A stretch of 37,727 nt of DNA from an uncultured Veillonellaceae bacterium (GTDB lineage Bacteria > Bacillota > Negativicutes > Selenomonadales > Selenomonadaceae), in NCBI GenBank assembly GCA_900316275.1, contig ONCF01000053.1, positions 1 to 37,727 on the forward strand, given 5' to 3'. The notes under the pieces are model-generated. The model was given only the letters and a program-made list of their open reading frames with translations, searched no databases and was not told the origin of the DNA. Positions 1-22,045 of this stretch are shown one piece after another; positions within the stretch are counted from its first letter, which is position 1, and each line of letters opens with the position of its first letter. Made by a program: the position numbers and the translations under genes.

Positions 1-165
1 CTGATTAATAAGTTGGTCCAGATTGTCGTAGATTTTTCGTCTAGGCTAGGAAGGGACTCGCAGGCATAGCGGTGGCTATGCCGAGAGAACCTGACGACGC
101 ATAGGCGGAAAAGGTACGGCAAGATGGGCTGACGATTTAATCAGCGTTTCCTTAAGCAAAACGAC
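1..165 (-). repeat. Dispersed MITE-like repeat, copy 1
   Basis: The reverse complement of this segment aligns over about 150 bases with 20611-20774. Shared blocks include the CTTAAGGAAAC edge, GATTAAATCGTCAGCCCATC, TTTTCCGCCTA, an internal CATAGC...GCTATG hairpin (here at 64-83) and TAGACGAAAAATCT. CTGATTAA at 1-8 and TTAATCAG at 137-144 form perfect terminal inverted repeats. No protein is encoded. It may be a non-autonomous mobile element or a family of intergenic repeats. Because the window starts here, the left edge may extend further. Confidence 0.75.
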
Positions 166-186: not shown

Positions 187-1080
187 ATGAAAACACGTAT
201 CGGACGCTTCACTATGCTCAGCTGCCTGTTCGTGCTGGCGGCGCTCGTACAGCTCGTGCAGCTGCCCGTGGCGCAGGCGGACAGCTGGTACTGGCTTTCC
301 TCGGACAGCAAGTACAGCAAATTTTTCGACCCGACGTCCGTCTACACGGAGGAGTCGGCGAAGACGAGCCACGGCAATGTCCCCATCGCCATCCGCGCCT
401 GGACGCGCACGAACTACAGCTATGGCGGCGCGCAGGAGACGCTCGCGGCCTACAAGCTCACGAAGCTCATCCCCGACGCGACACAGCTCAGCTACAGCTA
501 TGCGCAGGTGCTCATCAACCCGCAGAACCGCACGCTGCAGTACCTGGAGGAAGCGTTCTACGACGCTAAAGGCACGCGCCTCTGGCATACGACGGCGCCA
601 GGGCGGCTGAAGGAAATCAACAGCCAGGAGTTCGACGAGGCTTTCTACACGGCCATCGTCGACGAGACGTTCCGCACGGAGCAGGAGACGGAGCGCGCCA
701 AGGCCAAGGACCGCTGGCTCTCCCTCTGGGAGGAGGCCACGCTGGACGGGCACCGCACGTCGGTCATGGTCGACACCTCGACGCTGCGTCTGCGCGACAA
801 GAACGTCATCGGCTGGTTCTGGCAGGAGACGAAGGACAGCAACGGCGCCGTGCTGGAAATCAAGTTCCTCAAACGCGCCATCAACCTGCCGCAGGGCTCG
901 GAGAAAGTCGTGAGCGGCAAATACTGGAGCGCGAAGACGGGCTGGCAGCCCATGCGCGACATGGACGGCATCTACCGCGCCATCCGCACGGGCACGGCGA
1001 AATATACGGGCCTGCAGGCGCTGCGCAACTACGCGAAGACGCACCAGGACTGGCTCACGCGCTACCAGATTAGCAAGTAA
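187..1080 (+). CDS. Secreted protein of unknown function with two related halves
   Basis: The 297-residue protein begins at ATG 187, which follows a GGAGGTG ribosome binding site at 174-180; the upstream ATG at 172 lies before that site and is rejected. Residues 1-30 are a clear signal peptide ending in a VAQA-type cleavage site, so it is exported to the periplasm or envelope. Two similar halves follow, each starting near a tryptophan-rich stretch (WYWLSSD near 33, WLSLWEE near 180) and ending in an FY/IYRAI-type helix. Its C-terminal YAKTHQDWLTR resembles YASAHREELIAR in the secreted protein at 2288, suggesting a shared fold. I do not recognise the family. It ends just before a strong terminator and appears monocistronic. 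Confidence 0.75.
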   Translation: MKTRIGRFTMLSCLFVLAALVQLVQLPVAQADSWYWLSSDSKYSKFFDPTSVYTEESAKTSHGNVPIAIRAWTRTNYSYGGAQETLAAYKLTKLIPDATQLSYSYAQVLINPQNRTLQYLEEAFYDAKGTRLWHTTAPGRLKEINSQEFDEAFYTAIVDETFRTEQETERAKAKDRWLSLWEEATLDGHRTSVMVDTSTLRLRDKNVIGWFWQETKDSNGAVLEIKFLKRAINLPQGSEKVVSGKYWSAKTGWQPMRDMDGIYRAIRTGTAKYTGLQALRNYAKTHQDWLTRYQISK

Positions 1081-20362: not shown

Positions 20363-20601
20363 AACAAAATATTGACAACAAATATCCTTATCAGAACGAT
20401 GCCCATCACAAGCTGTTCCGCCTCAGCTCGGGCACGGAGTCCGATACGAAGGATATGACGGGCAGCCTCTCGGGCGTCGTGGGCATCGATGCGCTCTCGT
20501 TGGCGGGCGACGAAATCATGCGGTCTATCGCGCAGAGCAAGCACAAGGTGCTGGCCATCGCCAAGCAGCCTATAACAACCTATAACAATGTAAATCCATA
20601 A
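20363..20601 (+). pseudogene. Orphan gene tail with no start, identity unknown
   Basis: An open frame runs to TAA at 20599-20601 without a start codon. Its GC-rich core (about 20394-20571) has the base composition of a resident gene and encodes NDAHHKLFRLSSGTESDTKD, then GSLSGVVGIDALSLAGDEIM and SIAQSKHKVLAIAKQP. The flanks are AT-rich and non-coding. It looks like the 3' fragment of a deleted gene. I do not recognise the protein. Confidence 0.5.
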
Positions 20602-20610
20602 ACGCTTAAC

Positions 20611-20774
20611 CTTAAGGAAACACTGATTAAATCGTCAGCCCATCTTGCTGCATCTTTTCCGCCTAGCCGTCGTCAATGGCTCTCGACATAGCACCGCTAT
20701 GCCTTCGAGCCATTTCCTAGTCTAGACGAAAAATCTGCTGCAATCTGGACGCAGCCTGAAACCTTTATAATCAA
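20611..20774 (+). repeat. Dispersed MITE-like repeat, copy 2
   Basis: This matches the reverse complement of 1-165, with CTTAAGGAAAC at the left edge, CTGATTAA at 20623-20630, the CATAGC-ACC-GCTATG hairpin at about 20688-20703, TAGACGAAAAATCTGC and a decayed right end ATAATCAA (20767-20774). It lies between the orphan gene tail and the PemK-like toxin-antitoxin promoter. Confidence 0.75.
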
Positions 20775-20832
20775 GAAACCATGTATCTCTCGTGTTGGGT
20801 ACATGGTTTTTTTTTGATACCAAATAGTTGTC

Positions 20833-20862
20833 TTGACTGTACACTGGCAGTAGGCATATAAT
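20833..20862 (+). promoter_or_regulatory. Promoter of the PemK-like toxin-antitoxin operon
   Basis: TTGACT (20833-20838), 18 bases, TATAAT (20857-20862). Confidence 0.8.
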
Positions 20863-20894
20863 AGAAAGAGAGTAGTTCGAGGAGGTGCTAAGCC

Positions 20895-21095
20895 ATGCAT
20901 ACGTTTGCAGATGTGGTAAAAAAAAATCCGGACGCTGTGAAAGCAGTCATTGCTCAGAACACGTGTACTAATGCGCATGGCGACACTACCATCGCGCGTG
21001 ATGATCCCTGGGCGAGCGAGGATGTGTGGGATGCTGACTATGAGAGGGTGAAGGAAACTGATAGATATAGAGGCGCGTATCGCGCAGCTAATTGA
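20895..21095 (+). CDS. Putative antitoxin of a PemK/MazF-like pair
   Basis: A 66-residue acidic protein starts at ATG 20895 behind a near-perfect GAGGAGGTG site. It begins MHTFADVVKKNPDAV and has an acidic, tryptophan-bearing C-terminal half (DDPWASEDVWDADYERVKETD), as expected for a flexible antitoxin tail that wraps a toxin. No DNA-binding motif is evident. The role is inferred from position: the next gene overlaps its end in the +1 frame and resembles a MazF-fold toxin. Confidence 0.6.
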   Translation: MHTFADVVKKNPDAVKAVIAQNTCTNAHGDTTIARDDPWASEDVWDADYERVKETDRYRGAYRAAN

Positions 21096-21459
21096 ACCAC
21101 ATCAGGTTTGGTTTGCTTGGTTTCCGTTTGAGGATAATCCTGCACAGGGGAAAGTCCGCCCGGTATTGATTTTGGAGGTTGAACAGGAATATGCAACAGT
21201 AGTCGCCATGAAGATTACATCTACGCAGCCTCGACTGCCTTGGGATTTCCGCTTGCAGGACTGGGCGGATATTCCGTTGGATCATGCGTCGACGATTCAG
21301 CCTAGTAGGGTAATGCGTATACGCTTGAGTAACATGAAACATTATGCAGGTCGTATTTCTGATGCCGATTGGGAAAAGGCTCTGCATAGATTTGCACTAT
21401 ATTGTGAAGAAAAAACCGCCCATGAGGGCGGTTTTTTTATGGTGATATGCAGTAATTAG
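21058..21459 (+). CDS. PemK/MazF-like toxin with unresolved non-ATG start
   Basis: The frame encodes EPHQVWFAWFPFEDNPAQGKVRPVLILEVE followed by SRVMRIRLSNMKHYAGRIS. The tryptophan-rich first strand and the GK.RPVLIL motif are typical of PemK/MazF endoribonucleases, which cleave mRNA. The frame is open only after TGA 21049-21051, and no ATG or GTG precedes the conserved N terminus. Possible starts are CTG 21058, ATA 21061 or 21067, or ATT 21091, which overlaps the antitoxin stop. TTG 21166 would cut off the first strands. A strong terminator hairpin lies inside the last codons, before stop TAG 21457-21459. The gene may be degraded or translated at low level. Confidence 0.6.
   Translation: MIDIEARIAQLIEPHQVWFAWFPFEDNPAQGKVRPVLILEVEQEYATVVAMKITSTQPRLPWDFRLQDWADIPLDHASTIQPSRVMRIRLSNMKHYAGRISDADWEKALHRFALYCEEKTAHEGGFFMVICSN
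21410..21438 (+). terminator. Terminator inside the end of the PemK-like toxin frame
   Basis: AAAAAACCGCCC (21410-21421) pairs with GGGCGGTTTTTT (21426-21437) around ATGA, with an uninterrupted T run. The toxin frame stays open through it to 21459. Confidence 0.88.
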
Positions 21460-22045
21460 AAATTTCACGCCAAGGAAGTAAATACCTTCGAGCGTTTCTG
21501 GTTATTGTTCGTAATAGAGTGGCCCTGGAAGAATTTCAGGCTATACTGGCAGTTCTTCATCAGGTTATAGAACATGCCAACTTCGATGCCCTTCTGGCCT
21601 TCGTCGGCACCATCGCCAAAGTTGGATTTAATCAGTGCATCCGGTGCGAGGTAACGATAGCCGAGGTAGGCTGAGAACAGGTGGGCGCGGTCGACGGGAA
21701 TCCAAGGGTTGCCACGGAACTGCAACTCTACGTTCCAAGCGTCGTTGTGGCCACCCTGATTGCCGTGTGCATACATGCCCTCGAGATTGAGGTGCGCATG
21801 AGCTTGTAATTGAGCACGGTAGCACCGATTTGCAGCGCATCGCCGTTGTAGGCATTGGATTTATAGTGGTAATACCCGATGGAACCATTGAATTTTTTCG
21901 AGAAAGTATGATCGTATACGGCACCGTAGGCCCAGTGTTCGGCGGGCACGTCGTCAAACGGATTGCTGCTCGCAGCGAAGCCCACGCTGGCCGTGCTGGA
22001 CACGGCAGCGGCGATGGCCAGAGCCATCAGATGTTTTTTCTGCAT
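21456..22045 (-). pseudogene. Frameshifted SLH-type outer-membrane porin (OmpM-like)
   Basis: The minus-strand gene starts at ATG 22045 after GGGGGAGAG with a signal peptide (MQKKHLMALAIAAAVSS...GFAA) and the beginning of an SLH motif (NPFDDVPAEHWAYGAV), which then jumps directly into beta-barrel sequence; the rest of the SLH domain and coiled coil is missing. Near 21788 the frame shifts: after LNYKL the barrel continues in another frame as AHLNLEGMYAHGNQGG, consistent with loss of one A in CTCAATG. A TGA at 21467-21465 stands where TGG would restore ...SLAWNF and stop at 21456, an outer-membrane-type C terminus. Three lesions make it non-functional. Confidence 0.8.

Follow-up and report, generated by a model that had tools for sequence, protein, structure and literature searches.

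What is the repeat that stands at the very start of this contig and recurs, inverted, farther along it, and why is it kept? The window (the whole 37,727-nucleotide stretch analyzed here) comes from a member of the Selenomonadaceae. From the sequence of the window alone, the initial annotation proposed a pair of inverted dispersed repeats, possibly of a MITE family, and suggested that they may mark mobility or recombination.

Repeat copies in the window and their family

BLASTN recovered the inverted pair, matching 1-165 with 20611-20750 on the opposite strand at 86% identity. The outer limit of the second copy, initially placed at 20774, is too far, because the far end of that copy is lost; its described decay was correct, as one end is intact and the other is gone. 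Copy 1 does possess the reported ends and internal hairpin, but CTGATTAA (1-8) and TTAATCAG (137-144), taken as perfect termini, lie 7 bp inside the true element ends. GGAAACR is seen outside CTGATTAA in other copies; in copy 1 these 7 bp are missing, since the contig begins within the element. On the right, copy 1 terminates in GTTTCC (146-151) with TTAA immediately after it, and copy 2 retains the GGAAAC end at 20616-20621. The features are as follows.

1..151, plus strand: MITE copy 1 (BLASTN family in its own genome, alignment A1, end pattern at 137-151)
19..127, plus strand: hairpin core of copy 1, sense strand of the fold (model R1, 108.5 bits)
63..82, plus strand: apical hairpin of copy 1, GGCATAGC-GGTG-GCTATGCC (from the sequence; the best-conserved part)
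137..151, minus strand: right terminal inverted repeat of copy 1, GGAAACGCTGATTAA (end-pattern search)
152..155: TTAA, presumed right half of the 4-bp target duplication of copy 1, the left half being off the contig
188..1080, plus strand: gene directly downstream of copy 1 (start set by GGAGG at 174; the ORF listing begins at 172)
20612..20615: TTAA bordering the intact end of copy 2
20616..20750, minus strand: MITE copy 2 (intact end at 20616-20630; other end lost past ~20750)
20640..20747, minus strand: hairpin core of copy 2 (model R1, 111.8 bits)

The gene downstream of copy 1 had no Pfam match. Copy 2 is adjoined by a gene-poor stretch (20580-21776) with a weak Porin_5 match at 21465-21776 on the minus strand, and a terminator-like hairpin with a T-run lies next to its decayed end.

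The pair does not stand alone. Besides the pair itself (E-values of 7e-82 and 1e-40), BLASTN found some 20 additional copies or fragments in the same genome (G000), giving a dispersed family of more than 20 rather than two only. The end pattern GGAAACRCTGATTAA, with up to two mismatches allowed, occurs at 74 sites in this genome, compared to 3 for the reversed control. An intact element is about 158 bp long (mostly 157-160 bp) and runs from GGAAACRCTGATTAA to TTAATCAGYGTTTCC. About 11 contig ends of the assembly fall within copies; the copy number is therefore underestimated, and these ends show assembly breakage rather than recombination. The repeat had no match in the plasmid collection searched.

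Two kinds of derivatives were observed. In a larger subfamily, the 3' arm contains a further stem-loop made of about 50 additional bases (C31:45672-45879 of G000; L018, L021). The same form is present in the genus-mate G001 (L081, L083, L084), and its occurrence in two species indicates that it spreads too. Fused-end mini-derivatives (GGAAACGCTGACGGTTTAATCAGCGTTTCC) of about 30-36 bp are REP-like (C55:9306-9333, C70:32853-32881 and C22:23012-23048 of G000; also L088).

Mobility and partner insertion sequences

Among 49 copies with both ends present, 21 are flanked by identical 4-mers of the YTAR type. The permuted mean is 8.5, and none of 20,000 permutations reached 21. Non-palindromic 4-mers gave nine direct repeats (1.9 when permuted) and no inverted ones, while the other duplication lengths tried showed a weak excess at 2 bp only (3 versus 0.96). 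Some insertions lie at a gene stop codon (L015, L016, L079); as the YTAR target contains TAA or TAG, such an insertion can preserve the protein. Two insertions of G001 have empty counterparts in members of the genus (L076 in G002, G000 and G003; L069 in G003), with flanks too diverged for reading the exact junction.

A full insertion sequence (IS) with the same ends was found in relatives. In genome G005 (L128:1292-2554) it is 1263 bp long, has GGAAAYACTGATTAA ends flanked by TTAA/TTAA, and encodes a 345-aa IS5 transposase (NCBIfam NF033581). IS elements sharing terminal repeats with the MITE are also present in G085, G093, G106 and the IMG/VR locus L168. The latter, on a contig filed as viral, encodes a transposase that shares 96% identity with the G005 enzyme and has an exact TTAG/TTAG duplication. 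Relatives occur in 19 of 101 genomes of the family. None of the four genus members contained a matching IS or transposase, so present-day mobility there is at most putative, and the one other DDE_Tnp_1 protein of the window's own genome has no matching ends. For elements with GGGCGTGTCTGAAAAC ends, no partner IS was detected in the seven genomes searched.

The IS and MITE ends covary by genome, with GATTAA in G005 and GATAAA in both G021 and the genus of G085. Overall, the MITE resembles the IS5-family element (NF033581, transpos_IS5_4) in its GGAAAYACTGATTAA terminal repeats, 4-bp YTAR duplication and end variants specific to genome groups. However, only the terminal ~15-17 bp match: rather than stemming from the IS, the MITE interior holds a conserved folded core that is also found with other ends. 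The terminal repeats, duplications, empty sites and matching full IS identify the element as a MITE, in line with the initial proposal, to which the many copies also lend support.

The short palindromic derivatives of 28-37 bp (L025, L026, L030) recall REP sequences, and one might consider a REP/BIME element mobilized by a RAYT (Y1) transposase. At 158 bp, and with its terminal repeats and target duplications, the element is unlike REP, and we regard the probability of this explanation as negligible. It was rejected as no Y1_Tnp was detected in G000, G001 or G009, all of them copy-rich.

Fold and covariation of the core

The interior forms a single long hairpin on one strand. For copy 1, the computed folding energy is -76.7 kcal/mol (z -10.4) for the plus strand and -44.3 (z -5.1) for the minus strand. 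As scored, the plus strand folds lower in 46 of 49 copies from five genomes. The three exceptions (L112, L116 and L118) are misoriented according to their end sequences, and their polarity reverses when they are turned, making it 49 of 49. The plus strand also folds better in 37 of 38 diverse representatives, the matches being oriented by best model fit, which may favor the better-folding strand.

The apical hairpin (helix 3 of alignment A2) is paired in 98.5% of cells. Across 33 sequences, three places show conserved tandem G.A mismatches, and there are 161 G-U cells versus 56 A-C cells. Conservation across families extends to the unpaired positions of the G.A loops and the apical cap. Out of 40 pairs, 27 change on both sides; none of 500 shuffles scored as high, and slid structures gave 12-17. 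These counts are not equivalent to independent events, copies within one genome being related. In 49 matches from loci outside model building, 91.7% of cells are paired and 38 of the 40 pairs covary, although this alignment (A3) was fitted to the model and its counts lean towards structure.

A match to a known structured RNA, envisaged initially as the outcome that would speak against a MITE, is absent from Rfam 15: there was no hit at the gathering score, and a permissive E-value returned nothing relevant, only a 13-bit sul1 match (E 2.6). The interior nonetheless behaves like a conserved structured RNA, in that distant lineages share its strand-specific folding and show compensatory changes, a property beyond what could be seen in the window itself.

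Strand polarity and compensatory changes together indicate that selection acts on the core in its folded, single-stranded form. We therefore consider it likely that the element is a MITE moved in trans by IS5-family transposases, and that this selected form of its core is most probably RNA. According to this explanation, the transposases would mobilize the non-autonomous element in trans, the transposition event itself being what we infer, and insertion at YTAR sites would create the 4-bp duplication. The core would fold on one strand only, its helices stacking into a rod that contains three tandem G.A internal loops and bears a capped apical hairpin.

It might be argued that this is an ordinary palindromic MITE, whose hairpin is a functionless DNA by-product of long inverted arms (cruciform formation, arm-to-arm conversion). 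MITEs are often near-palindromes, arm conversion can also yield covariation, and the insertions look neutral and intergenic, with no bias in gene orientation (see below). A DNA process is blind to strand, yet the polarity of the fold is nearly uniform in both sets; nor does such a process fit the excess of G-U over A-C or the conservation of unpaired G.A loops and apical cap. We consider this possibility unlikely.

The nature of the single strand is a separate matter. With DNA folding parameters, each of the 44 sequences tried kept this polarity, and energy alone therefore cannot choose RNA over DNA. Tandem G.A and G.T pairs stabilize DNA as well, so the selected form could in principle be a single-stranded DNA hairpin acting in replication or transposition, comparable to integron attC sites or IS200/IS605 ends. 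However, the ends, the 4-bp YTAR duplications and the partner IS belong to the DDE IS5 type, and such elements move as double-stranded DNA; a Y1 transposase is absent from both the window's own genome and G001. A DNA hairpin thus appears quite improbable compared to RNA.

Distribution of the core and proposed exchange of its ends

All class- and phylum-wide scans were performed with R1, a covariance model of the core. Matches were found in 103 of 300 genomes of the class, representing 35 of the 97 genera sampled, with 47 copies in G009 and a maximum of 134 in G126. Outside the class, 10 of ~380 genomes of the phylum, belonging to a few other Bacillota, gave matches (best E-value 3e-15). On 682 kb of unrelated IMG/VR loci, R1 returned nothing up to an E-value of 1.

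The pattern of apical hairpin and loop is present in Selenomonas, Schwartzia and other Selenomonadaceae, and also in Geobacter, Desulfosarcina, Anaeromyxobacter and a Nitrospirae MAG. The best of these pattern matches, the Geobacter-group copies, are scored by R1 with E-values of 5e-10 to 4e-5 and have an extra internal loop. The core is probably shared with Desulfobacterota by descent; because of the extra loop, we grade this as likely rather than established. Alignment A4, which includes the Desulfobacterota copies, is out of register around this loop and was therefore left out as proof of homology.

The same core is found between at least 10 different terminal repeats, including GGAAACRCTGATTAA, GGGCGTGTCTGAAAAC, GGGCGTGTTGGTAAAC, GTGCTGKTGGTAAA and GTACCGTGTCAACTCTAA as well as GTGTCTTGRCAAAGTT, GTGGTCTGTCTACA, GTACATTGACTAGGTT, GGACCGCAGRAGCTCAAT, GGGGCAGTCATGGCAGG and others. 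The various end types mostly have YTAR-like flanks, and in three genomes (G028, G117 and G118) two end types coexist. In G118, a Moco (molybdenum) riboswitch (L304:1667-1788, minus strand) lies near a copy. The presence of one core between many terminal repeats suggests that ends have been acquired repeatedly, the core taking those of whichever IS5-like transposase may be available.

A broader reading can be put forward, albeit tentatively and at somewhat less than even probability. An ancient mobile RNA core, present in Negativicutes, other Bacillota and Desulfobacterota, would swap terminal repeats and ride IS5-type transposases, while selection would maintain the folded RNA, not the transposase, probably via a conserved host protein.

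Genomic context

The orientation of copies relative to neighboring genes, assessed with rough ORF-based gene calls, shows no bias (sense to antisense 25:23 on the left and 21:28 on the right). This argues against a uniform cis-regulatory role and means that transcription would yield the wrong strand for about half of the copies. Several copies do lie immediately before a ribosome-binding site (copy 1; L124, L125) or between a gene and a terminator-like hairpin, as might be expected of a riboswitch- or terminator-like element that spread by helping neighboring genes. Considering the balanced orientation, the lack of any common gene neighbor among the copies seen and the lack of an Rfam match, such an explanation is very improbable.

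For the preferred reading, a MITE with an RNA-like core, the core is most likely a putative RNA transcribed by read-through from neighboring genes. Such an RNA might bind a host protein, making insertions tolerable or keeping transcripts stable; this is a guess, and a doubtful one.

Known relatives and significance

Bacterial MITEs are usually viewed as remnants of a single insertion sequence that are young and species-limited. The closest parallels by description include bcr1 of the Bacillus cereus group, a mobile repeat of similar length for which a conserved RNA secondary structure has been proposed and which to our knowledge is confined to one species group. Correia/NEMIS of Neisseria and ERIC of enterobacteria are likewise MITE-like intergenic repeats, and their transcripts form hairpins; as far as we know, these repeats are restricted to narrow groups, and we know of no swapped ends in them. 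Our literature search found nothing on repeats of Negativicutes.

The Geobacter metallireducens genome paper describes 24 'predicted short RNA elements' with the central palindrome GRCGTAGCGCTGCTACGCC (PMC2700814). Read as its reverse complement, GGCGTAGCAGCGCTACGYC, this palindrome forms the apical hairpin in the Geobacter copies L398, L333 and L365. In the available text of that paper, the elements are reported for Geobacter and Desulfotalea only, as predicted RNA without an assigned role, and are not linked to transposable-element ends, target duplications or Negativicutes. They apparently represent one branch of the present core family.

The conserved fold thus outreaches its ends: it is class-wide, probably extends to more than one phylum, reaches 134 copies per genome and is absent from Rfam 15. 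A covariance model of the core would annotate much unexplained intergenic sequence. If the fold acts as single-stranded DNA, the mode of IS5-type movement would be called into question. If it acts as RNA, it would be a widespread mobile RNA with a putative binding partner.
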